Source of the DNA: Bdellovibrionales bacterium Ga0074139
GTDB lineage: Bacteria > Bdellovibrionota > Bdellovibrionia > Bdellovibrionales > Bdellovibrionaceae
Reading direction: 5' to 3'
Assembly (NCBI GenBank): GCA_001464795.1
Contig: LNEB01000007.1
Coordinates: forward strand, 62,001-126,000
DNA: 64,000 nt
In this document: piece by piece, positions 21,375 through 34,082 of the stretch
How positions within the stretch are numbered: the stretch's first letter is position 1
Layout: each line of letters begins with the position of its first letter
The notes under the pieces: generated by a model
Seen by the model: only the letters and a program-made list of their open reading frames with translations
The model's database searches: none
What the model was told of the DNA's origin: nothing
Program-made: the position numbers and the translations under genes

Positions 21375-21450
21375 TGACAATTCCCCCTGATAGTCTATGA
21401 TCGGATTTTAAAAGGAATTTTTTAAGTCTCAGTCTCAAAATAGGACAAAA

Positions 21451-21478
21451 AAAAGCCCACTATTTTAAGTGGGCTTTT
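21451..21478. terminator. Strong intrinsic terminator
   Basis: AAAAGCCCACT (21451-21461) pairs perfectly with AGTGGGCTTTT (21468-21478) around a 6-base loop. The A/T ends give a T-tract on either strand. Its position just downstream of the glycine-rich lipoprotein gene shows it ends that minus-strand transcript, separating it from the HD-GYP gene. Confidence 0.9.
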
Positions 21479-21513
21479 TCAGATTCAATCTGTTGCAATT
21501 GAACTTTTAAGAA

Positions 21514-22470: not shown

Positions 22471-25400
22471 TTAGTACTTTAAAAAAACTCTGACAAGCTC
22501 TTGCTCTACTAAAATCGGTTGAGGCCTTGGCCGTTCACCGGGTTTTAATGGTGGAGCTGGATTCTTTGACTGAGAAAGCTTCCTTTCGCAGAAAAAATCA
22601 AGAGCAGTTTCCCCCGTTGCGAGCTGGATCGGTGTTTTAAAAGGTTTGCATCCTGCCCCTGCCTTTAAATTCAGGGTGCCAGGTGACACCAGTTCGACAA
22701 CATCGCCATTCATTGCAAAAATCGGGACAACCAATTTGACACCACGTTCGAAGTCCACATTTTCCGTAGCAAAAAGTGCAGGGCGATATTTTGTTTTTAA
22801 GTTTTCACTTTCAATAACAAGGGGATAGGCCAAAAGAATTTGCAAACTGCTGGAAAAAAAAGAATAGCGATCCAAGCTTTTTCGCACAGCTTTTCCTGTT
22901 TTGAAGTCGTGATATTGAACTTCTGAATTTGTAACAGTGAACGCGCCTGTGTTTTGACCACCCGAGTAAACAGCCTGAGTCCACAAAGCAGAGTCAAATT
23001 GTAACCGCAGGGCATTCGCATCAAAGTTATCAAATTGTTCCGTCACGCTGTCCCAAGTCGTAATCTTTTGCGTGCCTAATTTTCCTTCAGAAAACCAAAA
23101 AAGTCCCCGTGAAAAAGGATCGGCTGCATCTAAATTAAAAAGTCCACCGCGCCTGGCTTCAAGTAAGGATCGGTACAAAGCTTGCGGATTTTCTTTTTTC
23201 GACTTTATTTTTCCTTCTGAAAAATTCACAAACAGAACATCTTGAATGTAATCCGGTTGCGAGCTAGGTCCCTGACTTTTTACGGTCAAAGCTGTGATCT
23301 CACCTTGGCTATCACCTGCACCTGGAACGAAATCTAAAAATCTTTTTCCATCCACATCGGTCATGGCTTGGGGTTTAAATTTTTCATCAAGCCAATAAAG
23401 CCTTTGCTCGACCCGTTCAGGTGTATTGCGGTTTTCCCATCGATCCTTAAGACTGACTTTTTTGTTAGGTAGTAATCCAGGCCCTATCCACGCGGGTCTA
23501 AAAACATTTTCCTTCACTTTTAACCAACGGACCTGGAAAGGAAGTCTTACAACTTTAGAGTCGTAAACCAATCGTTCACGAATTTTAAGATCCTGATCCA
23601 AATCAAAAAGGTGAACCATCGAGCTTTCTTCATCCACTTCTTCAATCACACCAAATACAGAGCCCTGACCTGTGGTGACTCCCCACATGACAGCAATTAA
23701 TTTTTTGCCTCGTGTATTGGGTATGACCATAGGACCTTTGATCTGCATCTTATTTTTATTGATATTGGCCGTAGCGACGCGAAACCCTTCAGCGGATTGT
23801 TCTGTGATGAGGTAGACTTCGCCGCGCTGAGCGCCGTCTAAACTTTCCAGCGGAGTCCAATCCCATGTGCTGAAGGGAAGACCTTCCACTTTCATGACAA
23901 TTTTTTGCTGACTTGAAATTTCAGCCAGTGGCATCGTCACTTCAGGCTCAATGATGCTGACTTGTTTATAACCGTTAGAAAACTCAGCTGTAACTTTGAG
24001 ATCTAAATCAGCTGGCATTTCCACATGAGTTTTTAAAACAACTCGGTATTTGCGAATTTCATTTTGTGACCAAATATTTTGTGGCTGCGATATTAAAGTG
24101 ATCGATTGCACCACGGGCCTTTTTGCCCCTTCAAGAACTTCAGAAATTTCAGTTGATATCTTCACATCTTTGGATTGAACACTGGCCCCTCGATTGATTA
24201 ATTCAAGATCAAAGGGAATTTCAGAGTCCTTTCCGTTCCACAACAGCTCGGGTCTTTCTCTTTGCACGGCTTGAATGACAGCACGAAAAGGAGTCTGGAT
24301 GGCACGGGCCACATCCAACTGACCCGAAAACACATACTTTTCCAGAGGATCCAAATCGGCTTTGAAAGTTTGCTGAACACCAGAGGCAAAAACTTGAAAT
24401 AAGGCCGTGGGTTTTTGCACTGGCCTTGCTGACAAAATGAGTTTTGCATAAATTTCGTTTTTAGCTACACCCCGAGATAAGAGCTCGGCTACAGCACCCG
24501 CAACTAAAGGTGTCGCTTGCGAAGTTCCAGACAAGTACTCATAACCTAAGAATGATCGAAACCGAGCAGGTCTTAAATCTTCTGGATAGGTACTCAGAAT
24601 GGAAAGTCCTGGGGCTGCGATATCAACACCACTTCCGTAATTGGAAAAATGCGACAAGGATCCATCAGGATTCAGAGAGCCCACACAAATCACAGAGCCA
24701 TAACTGCAAGGTCTGATCAAAGCTCTTGTGGAATCATTTCCAGCAGCAGCCACAACGATCACTCCTCGGCGGTTCGCTTCTTCAATTAATTTTCTGAGCA
24801 GCGGAGAATCCGCGACCTGAGGCCAACCCAAACTCATGGAAATGACTTCGGCCCCTTCATTCAGAGCGTATAAAAATCCACGAGCCACTCGGTCACTGAC
24901 CTCTTGATTGATACGGTAGCCTTGTTTTTCACGCACCATTTCTGAAGGATCTAAGCTCGGCGTGCTCATAGGCTTCAAAGGCTCATTGACCTGATCATCA
25001 ATCACTTGCACAGGTAAAATACGAATGTGCGGTGAAACGCCTGAAATTCCAATGGCATTACCAGATTCAGCTCCGATAATTCCTGCCACATGGGTACCGT
25101 GACCAATGTTATCAACAAAAAAAGGTGTTCCCACGATTCCTGTGGTTTCATTTTTTGCACCCATGGCACTCCAACCGTAACAATCCATGGGATAACCATT
25201 TTTATCGGTGTCGGCTTCAGGATTTTTGGGATCCATCCACTTTTCATCGCAAGCTTTTTGCTGACCATCACCCGCCAAACATGAAAGGTACTCGGCCAAT
25301 GCAGCACACTCGGATGGTTTTGTACGAATGATATTTTTCATATCCGGATGATTACGATCAATGCCTGTGTCAAGAACTGCCACTAAGATTTGTCTTGGTG

Positions 25401-25581
25401 ATTGCACTTGATTCTTAATATTTTTTACACCGATATCTTGATTGATTTTTCCAGAGACTCGGTAGTTTCGAACCGGATCCAAATCCACCACTTGAGCTTG
25501 GCCCTGATTATCAAGCGACCATTGAAATTTCAGCAAAGGATCTTGAGCCCAGCTCAGTGTAAGCAATAAAGATAAAATCAT
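22471..25581 (-). CDS. Exported S8 subtilisin-like serine protease with large C-terminal region
   Basis: 1036 residues. A short signal peptide (MILSLLLTLSWAQ) precedes the peptidase domain, with catalytic D71 (VAVLDTGID), H161 (NIGHGTHVAG), oxyanion N282 (AAAGND) and S354 (LSGTSQATP). There are six cysteines around the catalytic part. Beyond about residue 420 some 600 residues follow without motifs I recognise; they look beta-rich with one Ig-like stretch (LELINRGASVQSKDV) and probably bind substrate or the cell surface. The start overlaps the stop of the 1153-residue gene in an ATGA, so the two are tightly coupled. Confidence 0.9.
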   Translation of the reverse strand: MILSLLLTLSWAQDPLLKFQWSLDNQGQAQVVDLDPVRNYRVSGKINQDIGVKNIKNQVQSPRQILVAVLDTGIDRNHPDMKNIIRTKPSECAALAEYLSCLAGDGQQKACDEKWMDPKNPEADTDKNGYPMDCYGWSAMGAKNETTGIVGTPFFVDNIGHGTHVAGIIGAESGNAIGISGVSPHIRILPVQVIDDQVNEPLKPMSTPSLDPSEMVREKQGYRINQEVSDRVARGFLYALNEGAEVISMSLGWPQVADSPLLRKLIEEANRRGVIVVAAAGNDSTRALIRPCSYGSVICVGSLNPDGSLSHFSNYGSGVDIAAPGLSILSTYPEDLRPARFRSFLGYEYLSGTSQATPLVAGAVAELLSRGVAKNEIYAKLILSARPVQKPTALFQVFASGVQQTFKADLDPLEKYVFSGQLDVARAIQTPFRAVIQAVQRERPELLWNGKDSEIPFDLELINRGASVQSKDVKISTEISEVLEGAKRPVVQSITLISQPQNIWSQNEIRKYRVVLKTHVEMPADLDLKVTAEFSNGYKQVSIIEPEVTMPLAEISSQQKIVMKVEGLPFSTWDWTPLESLDGAQRGEVYLITEQSAEGFRVATANINKNKMQIKGPMVIPNTRGKKLIAVMWGVTTGQGSVFGVIEEVDEESSMVHLFDLDQDLKIRERLVYDSKVVRLPFQVRWLKVKENVFRPAWIGPGLLPNKKVSLKDRWENRNTPERVEQRLYWLDEKFKPQAMTDVDGKRFLDFVPGAGDSQGEITALTVKSQGPSSQPDYIQDVLFVNFSEGKIKSKKENPQALYRSLLEARRGGLFNLDAADPFSRGLFWFSEGKLGTQKITTWDSVTEQFDNFDANALRLQFDSALWTQAVYSGGQNTGAFTVTNSEVQYHDFKTGKAVRKSLDRYSFFSSSLQILLAYPLVIESENLKTKYRPALFATENVDFERGVKLVVPIFAMNGDVVELVSPGTLNLKAGAGCKPFKTPIQLATGETALDFFCERKLSQSKNPAPPLKPGERPRPQPILVEQELVRVFLKY

Positions 25582-28500
25582 CGGAAAGCTCCTTGAGTGC
25601 GGTCAATTTCAGTGGGAAGAACTCCGGTTTTTCTAGAGTACAATTGAAAAATTCCTCCGGCCTCGTCAAAGTCATCGGGAGGATTTCCCCAGGTGTTTGA
25701 GATATAAGTTAAATCTCCATCTTCATCACCCGATCGAAATCCATTCACAGTCACAAAGTAGACCACATTTTCTTGACCTAAATAAGTTAACAGCAGTGGC
25801 ATGGGAATTTGCTCTTCTAACACGTAAAGAACTTCCGTCATCCAACGTACCTGTTCTTGACGGTTATTTTTAGGATACTTAATCGATAGATTTAAAATCC
25901 TATCCATCCAAGGAGTTAAACAATCAAAGTAGGATCCATTCACCCAAGCTCCTGAATAGCTACCAGGTCCTGCCTTTGGATTGACCTTTCGCTTGTGCTC
26001 ATCACACATCTGGCTGTATTTCCACTTTCCTTGGTTCAAATCTCCGTTGCCTAAGATTTTTTGGATATCACTTAAGACCATGTGATCGGCACGGCTGGCT
26101 TTGGCCCCGTTCATTTTCTCACTTAGTTTTTGAAACAAGCGGCTTAAGAACTTCGCTTTTTCTCCTGGCTGATTTCTAAGCTCCGTTTGCAGAACCAGAT
26201 CTTTCACTTTATCAAGGCCTGAATAACGAACGGATAAGTTAGCCGTGATCTTATAAAAATCGACGGCTTTGACAGTCTGAAAACTTTCTTTATCGATCAA
26301 TTTGTATTTTGCATCCTTTGGCAGTCCCAACTGAGTGATGATTTGATCAATCAAACTTAAAAATTTATCTCTGGGTAGTTTCCATCCACCCCAACTGTGT
26401 TGAATCATGGCGACGTCTTTCACGTCCCCGTTCAAATCTCTTTCTGTAGTAACTTGTCTCCAGTAAGCTCGGCCGAAGGGAATGTTAGCAGGATTGGGAT
26501 CATTGGGCTGAGCCAAATTCCAAGTGACGTTGCTTGATTTTTTATTCAACCAAGATTCAATCAAAGCAATAGAAAATCCTAAAAGATCCATCCCTTTTAA
26601 TTGTCCACGGCGAGATCTAAACAAATGCACTTCTTCATCTTTAGGATCAAGCTCCGGGTTCTCTTCGGATCTGGGGTAACGAAGTTTCATGGAATGATCT
26701 TCAGATAAATCAATCATCTGAGCCATCATGAGCTTCGCTTTTGTTTCACGGGTTTTAAAAAGATGCTCGATCTCTAATTTTTGGTAAGGAAAAGAACTAT
26801 AAAGATGCTCGGTGCCGTGGGATCTCAATAATGAAGACACTGATTTTCTTAATTTTAACTCTTGTTCTTCTTTGATGGTTTTATCTTCCACACTTAAATC
26901 TTCTTCTAAATAATCTGGTGAATAATCAAGTAAGAAAGCATCCGTTTTAATTTCAGATTGCGAACCATCAGCACGAAGGCTAAGAATTTTAACGAAGTAG
27001 TCCACATCAAATTGTACACCGCGAGCTTTCGCTGTTTGATTACGAACAAAAATTTGTAAGCCCTGTGCTGTTCTGACTAAACTAGTTTGTCTGAGTACAA
27101 CCCGTGAAGAATCCACTCCGCCGCTAACAGAATTAATAAAATTAAGGGGCTCAATGCCAAGCAAAAAATCCAGAGGGCTTGCGATACGGCCCTGGAGTCC
27201 CACTTCAAGGGAATCTGTGATGGTGAAAACTTCACCTTCTTTGAGTTCTTTAATAAATTCTCTAAATTTTTTCAGATCTTTATTATCAATGGTTTTTGCT
27301 AAGCCATTCATGAGACTGGGTACAAATAAATCTTTCCATTTGGCCTTTGAAGCCTCTTGCATAGAAAAAAGTGGTTTCACATGAATATAAGATCGTCTAA
27401 GCGAAGCGTTCGCTCCCAGTTGCACGGCTGGAAATTGTCTTTGAAGACCTAGTCCTTGACCTGTGAAAACCAATTCTGGAAATTGCTCAAAATTATTTAA
27501 ATATCCAAGGCTGACTGATGCTGAAATCATATCCACCAACTGCACAGCTGCAGTGGATCCATAATAGGTGCCAGTGGACACATGCCTTGCCGCTTGTAAA
27601 TCAAAACCACCCACGGGTCCACCCCAGGACTGAATGCCTTTATCTAAAGGCTGACCTGGATTTTTTTGAAAGTGCTCTTGGATCTGACGAACCACATCTT
27701 GGCCAAAGGATTCCTGGGCTTTTTCTAAGGTGAAAACCTGTAGCTTTTCATTAAGTTTTGAGAGTGCCGTAGAAATCATGGCTGTTCTGGTACGAATGCC
27801 AGCGTATTTCCACCAGTCATCATCCTTAAACGGAGATTCTCGGTCCCCGTGGGAAAATCTTTGCGGATAACCAGGCACTTTTTCTTTCATGACTCGGCCC
27901 TTTTGAATCAAGCCATCAGCGGAAGTTAAATTCAGATCCACATTGGGAAAGTAAGCAGGTAGTGGAATTTGAAAAACTTCAAATAAATTTTTAACTCGCA
28001 AAATAAATTTTCTGTAAGCAAGCTCCTTGATGGAGTCTGGATAATTCACAAAACTAAATAGCTCGCGGTAATCTTGCTCAGTCCAAGAGGCCATTCTTTT
28101 TAAAATCCACTGAACGTCTTCTTTAGTGGTGGAAGCAAACCCACCGGCTAAGGGATGATACAAAATAGCATACTGATTAATAATAGAAGCTGATTGTACC
28201 GAATATCTGTTAAGGCTTTCAGGAATAAAAGCCAAAGTGAAGGGAACAATCAGGGCTCTGTAAGCACGAAATTTAGAAAAATACTCGATCCAAGCTAAAT
28301 TTCTTGAGCGCTCTTCAAAGGAAATCGAATTGGGGTTGGGAATAAATCCCCAGTGCCAATCTTGGCTTTCATTTCTTTGGGTTTCAATTAGGGCGTCATA
28401 CAATACAATCGATAAGGATTCTTTTTTGTTCTCGGCCAACCAGCCTCTGGATTGCAAATTCATATCTTTGAATTCTAAGTTTTCAATGAATTCATTTTTT

Positions 28501-29039
28501 TGCTCAAGGCTTGAAAAATTCACGCGAAGTTTTTTATACACTTTGGGCGTGACCACGTCATAACCCAATTTTCTTAAAAGGGCTGAACGTAAAGATGTGG
28601 ATTGGGAAATCAGACTTAAACTTAAACGAAAGTACTGGCGACCTGCTTGAACACGGTAGAAAGCAGTATAGGGATTTCCGTCGGCTTCCACGGATAAAAA
28701 CTGAACACCAGCAGCAGCCTCAGGATAAATGGCCGTGGTGTTTTCTAAAATGGAGTATTTTTTATTTTGCCAAATTTTATTTTCTTGTGGATTAAACTGA
28801 CTTAAATCTTCACCGTTTTTTGCTCTTTTAACAGCATCAAAAGGATCCATGACTTGACCGTTTCGGTCCACCAAATCAGAAGCTGGTTTTTTAATGGAAA
28901 TCAACGGAATGGAAACACTGCCTGTACGTATATCAAGAAAACTTCCATCACTTGAAGCCACTGAGTCTTGGGCTTGAGCCGTCGCCACTGATAATGCAAT
29001 CAGCATCAGTGCACAAATAAAGACGATTCTTAATGACAT
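25578..29039 (-). CDS. Large exported protein of unknown function
   Basis: Start set at the ATG at 29039; AGGGGG lies 7 bases before it, inside the longer TTG-initiated frame. About 1153 residues with a clean signal peptide (FICALMLIALSVATAQAQ). The rest is soluble-looking, rich in aromatic and charged residues, with no transmembrane helices. I see no catalytic signature. Notable text: SHGDRESPFKDDDWWKYAGIRTRTAM in the middle and NGFRSGDEDGD near the C-terminus, an acidic loop that could bind calcium. The ATGA overlap with the subtilase suggests that both act together, for example as substrate, inhibitor or chaperone, but that is inference. Confidence 0.7.
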   Translation of the reverse strand: MSLRIVFICALMLIALSVATAQAQDSVASSDGSFLDIRTGSVSIPLISIKKPASDLVDRNGQVMDPFDAVKRAKNGEDLSQFNPQENKIWQNKKYSILENTTAIYPEAAAGVQFLSVEADGNPYTAFYRVQAGRQYFRLSLSLISQSTSLRSALLRKLGYDVVTPKVYKKLRVNFSSLEQKNEFIENLEFKDMNLQSRGWLAENKKESLSIVLYDALIETQRNESQDWHWGFIPNPNSISFEERSRNLAWIEYFSKFRAYRALIVPFTLAFIPESLNRYSVQSASIINQYAILYHPLAGGFASTTKEDVQWILKRMASWTEQDYRELFSFVNYPDSIKELAYRKFILRVKNLFEVFQIPLPAYFPNVDLNLTSADGLIQKGRVMKEKVPGYPQRFSHGDRESPFKDDDWWKYAGIRTRTAMISTALSKLNEKLQVFTLEKAQESFGQDVVRQIQEHFQKNPGQPLDKGIQSWGGPVGGFDLQAARHVSTGTYYGSTAAVQLVDMISASVSLGYLNNFEQFPELVFTGQGLGLQRQFPAVQLGANASLRRSYIHVKPLFSMQEASKAKWKDLFVPSLMNGLAKTIDNKDLKKFREFIKELKEGEVFTITDSLEVGLQGRIASPLDFLLGIEPLNFINSVSGGVDSSRVVLRQTSLVRTAQGLQIFVRNQTAKARGVQFDVDYFVKILSLRADGSQSEIKTDAFLLDYSPDYLEEDLSVEDKTIKEEQELKLRKSVSSLLRSHGTEHLYSSFPYQKLEIEHLFKTRETKAKLMMAQMIDLSEDHSMKLRYPRSEENPELDPKDEEVHLFRSRRGQLKGMDLLGFSIALIESWLNKKSSNVTWNLAQPNDPNPANIPFGRAYWRQVTTERDLNGDVKDVAMIQHSWGGWKLPRDKFLSLIDQIITQLGLPKDAKYKLIDKESFQTVKAVDFYKITANLSVRYSGLDKVKDLVLQTELRNQPGEKAKFLSRLFQKLSEKMNGAKASRADHMVLSDIQKILGNGDLNQGKWKYSQMCDEHKRKVNPKAGPGSYSGAWVNGSYFDCLTPWMDRILNLSIKYPKNNRQEQVRWMTEVLYVLEEQIPMPLLLTYLGQENVVYFVTVNGFRSGDEDGDLTYISNTWGNPPDDFDEAGGIFQLYSRKTGVLPTEIDRTQGAFR

Positions 29040-29279: not shown

Positions 29280-29978
29280 ATGATCTATTCAAAAGCCGCA
29301 ATGACAATCACAACCTGTTTACTACTCGGAGCTTGCGCAAAAAGTAGTGATAATAATGAATCTGTAGGTTCAGCCCCCATTCAGCCCTCTGAAGTGGCTT
29401 CCACTGAAATTACAGCTTCAGGAGTTTCTGTTTCAGAATTTACAACAACAAGTTATTTAGTCACAGCAGGACCACAATCAGTTGGTGAACTGGCTGTTAC
29501 AAACGAAGAAATTTATGTGGCCTATCCCATGCTTCGTGAACGTGCGACTTTTCTTTCAACAATCACAAGAGCAGTTGAAACGGATGCAGGAACTTTGGAT
29601 TTGTATGCAGGCGATGTGTTGATGATGACTTTAGTTTGGAACGCGGAAACCAGTCTTTATACAGTTCGAGGACCTAACACTTTTGTAGCCGATTCCATTG
29701 TTAGACGTATGAGTGCCGTCACAGCCACTGAAGTCAGCTTTATGGATCGATTGACATTTGTTATCTCCAGTTGCCGCACGGAAGTAGAGCAAGAAGAAGA
29801 TGTTGATCAAGAACAAAAGCAAGAAAGCAAAGAAGAGCCTAAAGAAGTTGAATACTGTTCAGCTTTAGCTGTTAAGCTGGGTTTTGACGTGATCGAGCAA
29901 GAACAGGAACAAGAGCAAGAGGAAAAAGAAGATAAAGCAGTCATTGAAGAAAAAGACGAAAAACAAACTCAAGAATAA
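29280..29978 (+). CDS. Lipoprotein with Glu/Gln-rich C-terminal tail
   Basis: 232 residues, GGAGGG upstream of the ATG. Lipobox LLGAC after a hydrophobic signal. Residues about 45-165 look like a small beta domain (ITASGVSVSEF, EIYVAYPML, VLMMTLVWN, LTFVISSC), with two cysteines at CRT and YCS. The final 50 residues are almost entirely E, Q, K and D, interrupted by one short hydrophobic stretch (ALAVKLGFDVIE). No family recognised. It is the first gene of a plus-strand unit of lipoproteins ending in a subtilase and is followed by its own terminator. Confidence 0.7.
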   Translation: MIYSKAAMTITTCLLLGACAKSSDNNESVGSAPIQPSEVASTEITASGVSVSEFTTTSYLVTAGPQSVGELAVTNEEIYVAYPMLRERATFLSTITRAVETDAGTLDLYAGDVLMMTLVWNAETSLYTVRGPNTFVADSIVRRMSAVTATEVSFMDRLTFVISSCRTEVEQEEDVDQEQKQESKEEPKEVEYCSALAVKLGFDVIEQEQEQEQEEKEDKAVIEEKDEKQTQE

Positions 29979-30055: not shown

Positions 30056-30706
30056 ATGAAGCAAATCCTTTGGCTTTTCATTTTACTGATAGCAGCCTGT
30101 CACTCGTCTGATTCTGATTCCGTTAGAAATCCGCCAACTTTAAGTGATGCAAAAGTGATCAAAGCAGGATGTTTGAATTTAGAACTGATCAAACAAGAAC
30201 TTTCACAAAATTACCCAAGCCAAGAGATCACCATCAATTATCAGCCCGATGCCCAGCTTGAGAATGAAAGTCAAAATTTTCATCTTCTAGCCTCTCATGA
30301 TGAAAGAACTATTCAGTCCTCTGAAATCATTGATTTCTATAAAGTCCAACAAAACGATTGTAGAACAGTGACCATTGAATCCAGAAATCAAGATATTTAC
30401 AAATTTGACATTATGGAAGCGACAGCAAATCAACTCAAATTAAAAATTTCTGAATCTTCAAAAAAACTAATTGTCAGTGAACTGGATTTAACCCGCCTGA
30501 GTGAAACTGAAATGCTGATTAAAAAAACCTATCTCAGTTTTAATGCTCACTGCAGAAGTCAGAAATTTGTAAAACCCAAAGTGACCACCTACTACTCTTT
30601 TGGCCGCAATGATCAACCCGCTGAATTAGACCCAGAATTTCAGAAGTCCTACTTGGCTTCCCTTGAGGACTACAGGCTGAACGGACATGCTCCATGTACA
30701 AATTAG
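30056..30706 (+). CDS. Small lipoprotein of unknown function
   Basis: Start set at the ATG at 30056, with GGGGG 4 bases before it; the frame is open further upstream but that part overlaps the terminator. About 216 residues. Signal with lipobox LIAAC. The mature part contains LNLELIKQELSQNYPSQEI, DFYKVQQNDCRTVTIESRN and two further cysteines, but no domain I recognise. Its last 13 bases overlap the start of the subtilase gene behind it, so the two lipoproteins are probably made together; it could be a partner or inhibitor of that protease. Confidence 0.7.
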   Translation: MKQILWLFILLIAACHSSDSDSVRNPPTLSDAKVIKAGCLNLELIKQELSQNYPSQEITINYQPDAQLENESQNFHLLASHDERTIQSSEIIDFYKVQQNDCRTVTIESRNQDIYKFDIMEATANQLKLKISESSKKLIVSELDLTRLSETEMLIKKTYLSFNAHCRSQKFVKPKVTTYYSFGRNDQPAELDPEFQKSYLASLEDYRLNGHAPCTN

Positions 30707-31800
30707 TCCTGATCTTTTTTTTACTTTCCGCCTGTGAAAAAAAAACGGATCAGTATCAAGAAAATAATCATTTAAGCTGCCGAGATCACAAAATTGAAAA
30801 TGAATACATTATTCATTGGACCGATTCTGAACCTACTAAGTCAAAAATCATTAATTTAAAGGATTTTTTAGATACCCGACCTGACAATTTGGATTTTATT
30901 GAACCCAATTACAAAATTCAACACAACCAACTACAGTCAAGTTCGGATTCTCCATTAAGCTCGCTTTTTGAAGACATTGGTGTGATCCAAGCCTGGAGCC
31001 TAGGATATTTTGGACAAAATATTATTATTGCCGTGATCGATTCGGGTGTGGATTTGACTTTACCCAATTTAAAATTCAATTTGCTGATCAATGGAAATGA
31101 TAATTCTTTAGATGGAATCGATAATGATCAAAATGGTTATGTGGATGATCGAAATGGCTGGAATTTTAGTAATAACTCAAGATTGATCATCGATGAAGTA
31201 GGTCACGGAACAACAATGGCCAGTCTGATAACAGGTACATCAGGAATTGCCAGAAGCTCTCGGTTTTTACCCGTTGATATTATGAGTGATGATACGGGTT
31301 CAGAATTTGATGCTAAAAAAGCCGTGGATTATGCCATCCAAATGAAGGCCCAAATTATTAACAATAGCTGGAGCATTTCCTGCTCAAGGTATTTAGCCAC
31401 TTCATTTCTTGATTATGGATCCAGCAACGTGATTTTTATCAATGCAGCTGGTAACAGCTTTGTTGATGTTTATAAAAATCAAGTGATGCTATCTTCACTT
31501 AATTTACCTAATTTTATTAATGTGGGATCTCTTTCTATCGATTCAACACCTTCTTATTTCAGTGGTTTTGGATCGACAATTAACATGTGGACACTAGGAG
31601 AAAATATTTCAGTGATTCATAACTCGGAAGTGATGGCCTCATCAGGAACCAGTTTATCAGCTGCCATTGTTTCTGGGGCCGTGGCTGTACTATGGAGCGC
31701 TTACCCTAAGGACACAGCGGTACAAATTATTAACCGCCTGAAAGCAAGCTCTGATAATATTGGTGGAATCAATCAGCTCTCGATCAAAAAAGCGTTTTAA
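30694..31800 (+). CDS. Lipoprotein S8 subtilisin-like serine protease
   Basis: 368 residues. The signal is short with lipobox LLSAC (C14), so the protease is membrane-anchored. The first 100 residues include a likely inhibitory prodomain (EYIIHWTDSEP...LDFIEPNYKIQ, typical I9-like text). Catalytic residues: D116 (IAVIDSGVD), H171 (EVGHGTTMAS), oxyanion N254 (NAAGNS) and S320 (SSGTSLSAA). A DGIDNDQNGYVDD loop at 140-152 may bind calcium. There is no long C-terminal region, unlike the subtilase at 22471. It overlaps the convergent transglutaminase-like gene by 4 bases. Confidence 0.9.
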   Translation: MYKLVLIFFLLSACEKKTDQYQENNHLSCRDHKIENEYIIHWTDSEPTKSKIINLKDFLDTRPDNLDFIEPNYKIQHNQLQSSSDSPLSSLFEDIGVIQAWSLGYFGQNIIIAVIDSGVDLTLPNLKFNLLINGNDNSLDGIDNDQNGYVDDRNGWNFSNNSRLIIDEVGHGTTMASLITGTSGIARSSRFLPVDIMSDDTGSEFDAKKAVDYAIQMKAQIINNSWSISCSRYLATSFLDYGSSNVIFINAAGNSFVDVYKNQVMLSSLNLPNFINVGSLSIDSTPSYFSGFGSTINMWTLGENISVIHNSEVMASSGTSLSAAIVSGAVAVLWSAYPKDTAVQIINRLKASSDNIGGINQLSIKKAF

Positions 31801-33149
31801 TCCTCTTCAATTTCCTCTTCCTCAGCTACAATTTCTTCTGGCAATGGTTCACCTTTTTTACTGCTTGCCGTTAACAAAGCGGAGCTGATAATATTCAGCA
31901 CCCGTCCTCGGCGACTGGATTCTTTAGCAAGTTCTGCTAAAGATACAGGCAAAGTGGATTGATCCACAGACCAAGCGGCTAATTCTGGGGACAAGTTGGA
32001 TTCCTCAAAACTCACGGCTCGGCTGCTGGCTGGATAGCTCCAAATAAAATCAGGATTGGCTTTAGAAAACCACTCACCGCCCACGATGTTTCGATTTTCA
32101 TCCAGTTCCAAGTCATAAATAAAAGTCATTTTTTTAGTGGTGTTTCGGCTTGTGATTCCCACAGTAGGGATTGTCAGGGCTGGGTGAGTGATTTCCATAA
32201 TAATTCCCACAATAAAAAAAGTTCTGGGACTTCGAAAAATAGAATAGCGATCCAAAGGCATTTCTGATTTTCCACGGATCGCTTTATTTAAAGACTCTGT
32301 GGGAATAAAAGTTTTGGGATCAAAGTAGTGATAACTGTAACTAGTGATCGGATAATTCCACACCTCAGTGCCCCTGGAGGAATCCATCACCAAACTTTTT
32401 TGCTGAAGTCCGACTTTGTTAATAATCGCTAAATGCCAGGTCATGGGGTTGGAATCTAAACAACTGGCTTCAAGGGGCCGAAGTGTGGGATCCACTTTCA
32501 CAACGGATTGCCGGCATCTGTCCCCCGCTCGGTAAGAAGTGGGCGGAGCTGACGCCCACACCCAGGAAATCAAACCTTTGATATCATTGGCGTGAAAGGT
32601 GATCGCATATTTGTCTGTTACATCATTCAAGGTCACTGGATAATAGGGGGACTCTGGAAGCAAATGACTGGCAGCCGCCCAACCATGACAGATGCCCGTC
32701 CATCCGGCTACAAAGCCGTCCCGCTCAAATTGATCACGGCCCTTTTTCCACATCAGCTTGGTCAGCGACCATTCAGGATCACCAATCAGCAAATCATATT
32801 TTTCAGACGGAGATAATTCATTGAGTCTTCCACTGGCAACAATGGACTCTGCTGATTCTGATAAAAACCGCTCGTAATTCGTTTCAAAAGAAGAGGATCT
32901 GGGAAATTTTTTATTCACATACCTGGCGCCAATGATCCCTTTGTGGATGGGCCAATAAGATCCCGACCAAGGTTCTAATTTTGAACGTCCCATGGTCAAA
33001 CCCTGAGCCTCCATCATTTGAATATTGGTGATGGATGTTAGCTCTTCCACAAACTTCAAAAAGTTGTCACCTGCCAATGGCTCTGAAGCCGTATGAATTA
33101 AATTAGCAAAACCAGAATAAGCCATGAACATTGAAAATAGAAAAACCAT
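31797..33149 (-). CDS. Transglutaminase-elicitor-like exported enzyme
   Basis: Start set at the ATG at 33149, with GGGGGG 4 bases upstream; the frame extends to 33356 but would overlap the divergent gene. About 450 residues with a signal peptide (VFLFSMFMAYSGFA). Catalytic triad candidates fit the transglutaminase-elicitor family (the Phytophthora GP42/TGM13 type): C154 in GWTGICHGWAAAS, H239 in MTWHLAI and D256 in VMDSSRGTEVWNYP. The family cross-links proteins through glutamine-lysine bonds. The last 15 residues are a strongly acidic tail (EEEEIEED). As an exported enzyme it could cross-link or remodel host, prey or own envelope proteins. Confidence 0.7.
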   Translation of the reverse strand: MVFLFSMFMAYSGFANLIHTASEPLAGDNFLKFVEELTSITNIQMMEAQGLTMGRSKLEPWSGSYWPIHKGIIGARYVNKKFPRSSSFETNYERFLSESAESIVASGRLNELSPSEKYDLLIGDPEWSLTKLMWKKGRDQFERDGFVAGWTGICHGWAAASHLLPESPYYPVTLNDVTDKYAITFHANDIKGLISWVWASAPPTSYRAGDRCRQSVVKVDPTLRPLEASCLDSNPMTWHLAIINKVGLQQKSLVMDSSRGTEVWNYPITSYSYHYFDPKTFIPTESLNKAIRGKSEMPLDRYSIFRSPRTFFIVGIIMEITHPALTIPTVGITSRNTTKKMTFIYDLELDENRNIVGGEWFSKANPDFIWSYPASSRAVSFEESNLSPELAAWSVDQSTLPVSLAELAKESSRRGRVLNIISSALLTASSKKGEPLPEEIVAEEEEIEED

Positions 33150-33206
33150 GATCCCCCCAAAAGATAATGAAAGCACTTGCAAGAATGAATCCCGGATGAC
33201 TATAAA

Positions 33207-34082
33207 ATGAGAATGAAAAAAACATTGATCATTGGTGCGGGCCTCACAGGACTTACCATCGCAAACTCTATCCCCAATTGCACGGTGGTTGAAAAATCCA
33301 AAGGTGTGGGGGGACGACTGGCCACCCGGCGCTGGAACGAACAAAAATTTGATCACGGGGCCCAGTTTTATAAGCTAAGTGAAACCAGTGAAGCTTTTCA
33401 CGATCTTGTTAAAAGTGCAGACTTGGTAAAACCTCTGATGGATCCCAAGTGGTGTGCAAAAAATGGAATGTCATCCTTAGCGAAGAAATTAGCTGAAAAT
33501 GTAAGTCTACAATTAGAAAAACATGTAACAAAAATTTCTGGAAAAACCGAAGTGCATTTTCTGAATGGTGAAGTGGAAAATTATGACCAGATCATTTTCA
33601 CCTGCCCCTTGCCACAAACTTTAAAAATATTAAAGGATTCTGAAATTTCCTATCCCGAAAGCCTTGATAAAATTTTGTATGCAAAAGCTTTGGTTTTTTT
33701 AGTGAGCTCGAAGGAATCGATCTCTGCTATGTTTTCACCGCATTATGTTGAAAATCCGACAGCAGAAATCTTTTCCTTCACTGATCAGAACTGGAAAACT
33801 TCAGCTTCGGGCACAGCTTGGACCATCACCATGAATCCCACGTTTAGTGAAAAACACTTCGAGCTAACTGACGAGCAAATTATTGCTGAGTTTAAAAAAG
33901 TTGTGACTATTGATCAGATGGAGATTCAATTAAAAAAATGGCGCTATTCCCATCCGTTGACTCAAGATACAGAACTATTTTTAAAATTGGACAATGTTTA
34001 TTTAGCTGGTGATGCTTTTGGTGGGGGTAGTATTAATGGAGCACTGAGGTCAGCAGCGGGGGTTTTGAAAAGCTTGTCATAA
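33207..34082 (+). CDS. FAD-dependent amine-oxidase/renalase-like oxidoreductase
   Basis: 291 residues, cytoplasmic. A dinucleotide-binding GAGLTG motif follows the first strand (TLIIGAG), then EKSKGVGGRLATRR and FDHGAQFY, both typical of renalase-like NAD(P)/FAD oxidoreductases; near the C-terminus KKWRYSHP and LAGDAFGGGSINGALRSA bind FAD. The family oxidises amines or dihydro-nicotinamide isomers. An ATG 6 bases downstream is an alternative start. It is divergent from the transglutaminase-like gene, and its 3' end overlaps the small membrane protein gene by 6 bases on the opposite strand. Confidence 0.85.
   Translation: MRMKKTLIIGAGLTGLTIANSIPNCTVVEKSKGVGGRLATRRWNEQKFDHGAQFYKLSETSEAFHDLVKSADLVKPLMDPKWCAKNGMSSLAKKLAENVSLQLEKHVTKISGKTEVHFLNGEVENYDQIIFTCPLPQTLKILKDSEISYPESLDKILYAKALVFLVSSKESISAMFSPHYVENPTAEIFSFTDQNWKTSASGTAWTITMNPTFSEKHFELTDEQIIAEFKKVVTIDQMEIQLKKWRYSHPLTQDTELFLKLDNVYLAGDAFGGGSINGALRSAAGVLKSLS

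Follow-up and report, generated by a model that had tools for sequence, protein, structure and literature searches.

A secreted protease and an unrecognised partner protein form a nearly obligatory two-gene module across the phylum Bdellovibrionota

The locus described here lies in a 64,000-nucleotide stretch of Bdellovibrionales bacterium Ga0074139 (assembly GCA_001464795.1, contig LNEB01000007.1, positions 62,001 to 126,000), which is called the window. It encodes a large exported protein of unrecognised family (UNK), an S8 subtilase (SUB) and a glycine-rich lipoprotein (LIPO), in this order. UNK and SUB form a two-gene secreted protease module that is real, phylum-wide and nearly obligatory. 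The features of the unit are as follows.

25578 to 29039, minus strand: UNK, exported protein of 1153 amino acids, family unrecognised; open reading frame (ORF) from the ATG at 29039
25578 to 25581, minus strand: ATGA overlap of the UNK stop and the SUB start
22471 to 25581, minus strand: SUB, S8 subtilase of 1036 amino acids; ORF with a match to PF00082
21514 to 22443, minus strand: LIPO, glycine-rich lipoprotein of 309 amino acids, downstream of SUB
21447 to 21479, minus strand: AAAAAGCCCAC-loop-GTGGGCTTTTTTTT hairpin with a U8 tract, an intrinsic terminator that ends the unit

The original prediction, made for positions 22471-29039, had described two unusually large products of 1153 and 1036 residues joined by an ATGA. 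These sizes were confirmed in the ORF list, and the overlap was found at 25578-25581. Translational coupling of UNK and SUB via this ATGA is likely from the sequence. The sequence AGGGGG precedes the ATG of UNK, and an upstream TTG start in the ORF list gives an alternative of 1159 residues. The glycine-rich lipoprotein and the strong terminator proposed to close the unit are both present, although their positions fall beyond the range of that prediction. Signal peptides, which had been claimed for both large products, were assigned by eye without a predictor. That of UNK is clear (MSLRIVFICALMLIALSVATAQA/QD) and ends in AQA-QD without a lipobox cysteine, whereas that of the window SUB is short, about 12 residues; most SUB homologues have ordinary ones. 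A hydrophobic N-terminal stretch was scored in 68 of 69 UNK and 66 of 71 SUB sequences, but this is a weak test, the same score being reached by 344 of 526 other ORFs.

UNK was said to have no recognisable motif, and it gave no match over the cut-off in Pfam or NCBIfam (RAP reached 15.4 bits, cut-off 24.2) and no relative among PDB sequences (best E 0.12). Its own genome holds one UNK match only and 14 S8 matches, two of which are apparently fragments of one ORF.

Co-inheritance was followed in 147 genomes of relatives and in 290 genomes of the phylum, two samples that share genomes (genomes and loci carry G and L numbers below). Among the relatives, UNK was found in 77 genomes by a single-sequence search and in 86 by profile A1, or in 80 once six paralogue-type weak matches were removed (G028, G031, G052, G054, G102, G116; sequences inspected for all except G052). 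The SUB C-terminal profile A6 matched in 78 relatives, and both genes are present together in 76. The gene is at a contig end in all four relatives that have UNK alone (G013, G017, G048, G136), and likewise in G001 and G015, which have SUB alone; in G013 (L049) a truncated catalytic part of SUB is visible beside UNK. In the phylum sample, profiles found UNK in 170 genomes, SUB in 158 and both in 157; the initial screens were loose, so that absences are softer than presences. Eight of the 170 genomes were excluded as having paralogue-type matches only (G028, G031, G116, G170, G265, G274, G277, G335; sequences inspected in four of the last five). SUB is present in 161 of the 162 that remain, in 157 by profile and in G013, G314, G261 and G264 by inspection, and the sole exception, G017, is cut by a contig end.

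This means that the pair is kept across Bdellovibrionota, a point that had been suggested as a check. UNK homologues do not commonly occur without the protease, nor do they match a known unrelated family in Pfam or NCBIfam; the distant UNK paralogues that stand alone score far below the paired family. UNK-SUB pairing is close to obligatory across the phylum. Pairwise distances of UNK and SUB are correlated (r 0.97, 48 loci), which shared descent alone could give; the trees and alignments A1 and A2 include some near-identical strains. By profiles, both genes are absent from G004, which belongs to the family of the window genome and is complete (2.7 Mb, one contig). By its size, G004 may be a non-invading predator; the pair might then go with life inside prey.

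The arrangement of the two genes is also conserved. After 14 loci reached twice had been dropped (one tally of the LIPO family still had them twice), 81 unique loci remained, and in 74 of these the gene next downstream of UNK is SUB. Six of the other seven end within 300 bp at a contig edge and one (L129) is unlinked; the arrangement is therefore not due to chance. The UNK-SUB gap could be measured in 55 of 61 loci and is between -28 and +11 in 53, most commonly -4, the outliers being L052 (137) and L067 (742). Outside the relatives, among the matches listed, SUB lies downstream by coordinates for 78 of 98 UNK places. Inspection of the other 20 showed the usual order with adjacent genes in 15, a reversed order in one (L181), a contig end in one (L182), and no adjoining SUB in three (G322, G323 and an extra copy in G221). 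Conversely, 17 SUB places had no upstream UNK among the matches listed; on inspection most had one, with L189 and L199 reversed like L181, and L193 and L196 at a contig edge. In G322 and G323 the two genes are apart, yet both are present. In Bdellovibrio bacteriovorus kdesi (L112, 7001-9966), UNK is split into two ORFs with internal stops, beside an intact SUB and an intact lipoprotein; this could be sequence error or decay.

Both genes are thus kept despite reversal (L181, L189, L199) or separation (G322, G323), which argues for a functional bond, and co-occurrence that outlasts linkage is the strongest sign of it. Both products look exported and UNK paralogues stand alone, so the two proteins might merely share one process, such as the breakdown of prey protein, without contact, the overlap only setting their ratio. 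This is improbable: retention after reversal or unlinking, together with near-perfect co-occurrence, is unusual for loosely related genes. We regard the UNK-SUB partnership itself as very probable. The original prediction had made UNK a substrate, activator or partner of the protease; functional partnership is strongly supported, and in it UNK may be a substrate, activator, chaperone or delivery partner.

Beyond the genome samples, a single-protein scan of a wider contig collection confirmed none of 15 UNK candidates. A motif scan of this collection (alignment A3) gave 36 confirmed cases among 121 stretches, at 35 loci, whose titles name Bdellovibrio, Bdellovibrionaceae, Bacteriovoracaceae and Oligoflexia or are unspecific; it used two peptide motifs only, so that UNK may occur in other phyla as well. 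UNK and SUB are also found on a contig titled Streptomyces griseus (L116), which is probably a mislabelled metagenome bin of the phylum.

SUB is predicted from sequence and model to be a complete and active subtilisin-type S8 protease. It matches PF00082 (E 2.5e-41), and the triad D71, H161 and S354 and the oxyanion residue N282 are invariant in 50 SUB sequences. The model (mean predicted local distance difference test score, pLDDT, 82.2; predicted template modelling score, pTM, 0.81) has the S8 domain at residues 11-432, which superposes on 3vv3 with Z 40.8 and a root mean square deviation (RMSD) of 2.3 over 310 aligned residues. The C-terminal region of about 600 residues is all-beta in the model and has no Pfam match; matches to the S8 domain took up the Foldseek and VIA lists of SUB, which hence are uninformative on this region.

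The N-terminal region of the window SUB is unusually short. In Pfam its S8 domain is matched from residue 64 onwards, whereas the match begins at 103-226 in eight further S8 proteins encoded by this genome. W21, in the QW motif, has just 20 residues before it. From the sequence, there is no room for a prodomain, and the propeptide usual in secreted S8 proteases is missing. The length before the catalytic core is bimodal among 50 SUBs: 64 residues or less in 30, and 112 or more in 20. On the SUB tree (a quick tree under the LG model, with some long branches) ten changes between the short and long states are required, of which at least six are forced by starred branches. Five long SUBs (L125, L064, L046, L061, L080) gave no match over the cut-off to the I9 or fervidolysin prodomain; the label "prodomain" there therefore rests on length and place. 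The fervidolysin prodomain was matched in two other S8 proteins of the window genome (L001, L005). In L005 (892-2676, minus strand; C7:171801-172577) the subtilase also carries a PilZ domain (PF07238, E 2.5e-17) and might therefore be a protease that senses cyclic-di-GMP. Two more very large subtilases, in frames of 858 and 1043 residues, lie near each other at C1:80037-86087 of this genome.

Structure prediction, which had been suggested as a check, gave a confident AlphaFold model of UNK (mean pLDDT 86.2, pTM 0.81; model numbering is protein numbering minus 23). The model consists of a kinase-like N-terminal fold and a large beta-barrel-like domain. Residues from about 71 to 360 (model 48-337) appear to have a protein-kinase-like fold. 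In the VIA comparison this domain resembles Fam20C/Golgi casein kinase (4kqb; Z 8.0, RMSD 4.8, 241 aligned) and CtkA (3akk; Z 7.8, RMSD 4.3, 188 aligned). Kinase matches from these two families have Z 7.6-8.0 and Foldseek E of 0.05 or more, and a Z of about 8 can reflect a common arrangement. The invariant residues (54/54) include R258, N277, D308 and W311, and the D308...W311 segment may be reminiscent of kinase helix F. In contrast to Fam20C and CtkA, the candidate catalytic Asp site is Asp in 42 of 54 homologues and Phe (F271) in the window protein, and no conserved DFG-type Asp is found at residues 284-300 in the 54 sequences; residues were matched to kinases by the order of elements, without a residue-level structural alignment. 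UNK therefore seems to be kinase-like in fold in its N-terminal domain and probably not a kinase. When this domain was compared by HH with HipA (24 proteins) and CotH (5 proteins), no relationship emerged (probability about 0.4%).

Residues from about 417 to 1107 are modelled as a large antiparallel beta-barrel-like domain, and a GFRxGDExGD motif is conserved near the C-terminus. In VIA its shape resembles outer-membrane barrels, namely CymA (Z 13.7, RMSD 6.1, 242 aligned) and, at Z of about 10-11, OccK, EspP and NalP (NalP barrel 1uyn: Z 9.9, RMSD 5.0, 205 aligned). A viral fold library listed both kinases and barrels, with one E below 0.001: the top match, a TonB-dependent receptor (E 3.6e-4). 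NalP is a subtilase autotransporter. This resemblance raises the idea that UNK translocates SUB across the outer membrane, the two being a subtilase autotransporter split over two genes, and amphipathic dyads in 48% of the predicted UNK strands, as compared with 20% and 29% of background segments, fit it. However, some of the long strands have polar residues on either face, and the per-strand alternation is not significant (p 0.066). The C-terminal part of the window UNK has the lowest dyad score of all proteins scanned, 0.70 segments per 100 residues against a homologue mean of 1.63, in a scan that is weak because E. coli barrels (1.4-3.1) and soluble controls (1.1-2.4) are not separated. In addition, the conserved D503 (52/54), H553 (53/54) and D609 (44/54) are in or beside predicted strands, long helices lie between the late strands, and Foldseek against PDB is weak (best E 0.043). 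A translocator role is thus rather unlikely. It should be mentioned that in subtilase autotransporters, of which SphB1 is another named example (passages of PMC8167434), the exported S8 protease and a similarly shaped barrel are in one polypeptide, whereas UNK and SUB are separate genes in 74 unique loci.

UNK has paralogues in two size ranges, about 520-760 and 1140-1330 residues, which share the D308/W311 surroundings. At the stand-alone paralogue loci inspected, no same-strand subtilase was found within three genes; at L141 a subtilase-like gene adjoins on the opposite strand. Eight stand-alone paralogues scanned against Pfam and NCBIfam gave no match over the cut-off. By sequence, UNK belongs to a larger unnamed protein group in the phylum. 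At L136 (4454-11420), paralogues of 1149 and 1139 residues stand in tandem with no subtilase within three genes.

Among the known systems closest to the UNK-SUB pair is the dentilisin operon PrcB-PrcA-PrtP of Treponema denticola, in which an S8 protease and exported partners are encoded together. According to the passages of PMC8167434 on this operon, PrtP protein is undetected without PrcB, PrcA processing is PrtP-dependent, and a non-polar prcA deletion (marked there as unpublished) left the subtilase unprocessed. The differences are these: PrcA and PrcB are lipoproteins and UNK is not; PrtP keeps its propeptide, for which the window SUB has no room; and SUB reaches 88.1 bits against a PrtP equivalog cut-off of 300. 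Dentilisin also bears on whether UNK might be a substrate or co-zymogen, cleavage by SUB freeing its active form. In passages of the same source, PrcA cleavage depends on its subtilase in several mutants, but persists in an active-site Ser mutant. UNK is always near SUB and mostly first in the operon, in line with such a role; on the other hand, it is modelled confidently over nearly its whole length. We consider the substrate role unlikely.

In 51 of 71 unique loci showing UNK and SUB, a LIPO-family gene is found no more than two genes away from the pair, upstream or downstream, and 61 of 64 LIPO-family ORFs are on the UNK strand. Glycine-rich composition can inflate this family, although chance would hardly produce such a strand bias. 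Elsewhere in the window, a divergent lipoprotein-like frame with a low-complexity C-terminus rich in Glu, Gln and Lys is found at 29280-29978 (plus strand). A 519-residue frame at 31800-33356 (minus strand) has a transglutaminase elicitor domain (PF16683, E 9.4e-33), and a small lipoprotein-like subtilase (30694-31797, plus strand) adjoins it.

In locus L095 (G036, putatively B. bacteriovorus HD100) the order is rhomboid, LIPO, SUB, UNK. Bd2426 is a rhomboid-like protein according to a passage of PMC3818213, and in a passage of PMC11003981 Bd2428 is one of the S8 proteases listed for the secretome ("kiss of death") of empty killed prey. From this order and these two annotations, LIPO, SUB and UNK would correspond to Bd2427, Bd2428 and Bd2429 of strain HD100. 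Passages of PMC2797640 describe Bd2428 as up-regulated in predatory growth, in early predation, and as a protease gene of an earlier transposon screen. The main text of Tudor 2008 (PMC2277423) contains nothing matching, so that the transposon link rests on the sentence in PMC2797640. In the literature searched, Bd2428 is named in two Bdellovibrio papers and also occurs in three yeast papers, and no mention was found of Bd2427 or Bd2429 as whole words. Bd2269, a prey-lytic subtilase of B. bacteriovorus, is like SUB a secreted S8 protease of a predator, but passages of PMC12546842 describe a downstream neighbour transcribed away from it and complementation with bd2269 and 196 bp upstream, and mention no UNK partner. 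As candidates for the UNK-SUB module, Bd2269 was rejected, as were the complexes Bd2209-2212 and Bd2723-2726.

The best reading, to which we give a probability of roughly 45%, is a secreted two-gene module in which UNK is the trans propeptide or latency partner of SUB, with a part in delivery. UNK and SUB would be the two indispensable parts of a single secreted protease unit. UNK would be made first, with translation of SUB coupled to it, and would bind SUB either in the periplasm or extracellularly. There it may do the work of a propeptide, aiding folding and holding the protease in a latent state, and a further part in placing or delivering SUB is probable. The covalent prodomain seems to have been lost in this and other lineages, where UNK alone would act. 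LIPO probably tethers or assists the unit, and in Bdellovibrio the protease would be released into prey. Of this, the pairing, the co-inheritance, the intact S8 residues, the missing prodomain and the UNK model were observed, and from them binding, the chaperone or latency role, delivery and the part of LIPO are deduced. The more specific picture, in which UNK is an envelope protein with a pseudokinase-like domain and a beta-barrel that acts in trans as a propeptide, as a safety catch and as the port through which a prey-released protease is delivered, is improbable as a whole. No description of such a split secretion-activation system, spread over a phylum of predators, was found in the literature searched.

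Several observations weigh against a trans-acting propeptide. A prodomain-sized SUB extension is kept in 20 of 50 pairs, so that UNK is not simply its substitute, and UNK equals the protease in size, exceeding what a folding helper needs. Its fold is used without the protease in the stand-alone paralogues, and G221 carries, at L184, an additional UNK copy that lacks an adjoining SUB. In B. bacteriovorus kdesi a broken UNK, possibly a sequence error, adjoins the intact SUB, and G289 has SUB only by the phylum profiles, in an assembly that is 72% complete.

Bdellovibrio kills with mixed secreted proteins, several proteases included. To our knowledge, it is an open question how the predator spares its own envelope and sends proteases into the prey. 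The pairing of UNK and SUB may mean joint work, perhaps in prey attack, and a near-inseparable, phylum-wide protease partner is a concrete and testable candidate for self-protection or delivery. The putative counterpart Bd2428, reported from killed prey, is now tied to its neighbour, the putative Bd2429. Furthermore, the prodomain of the paired protease has changed repeatedly, which offers a natural experiment on trans-acting propeptides.

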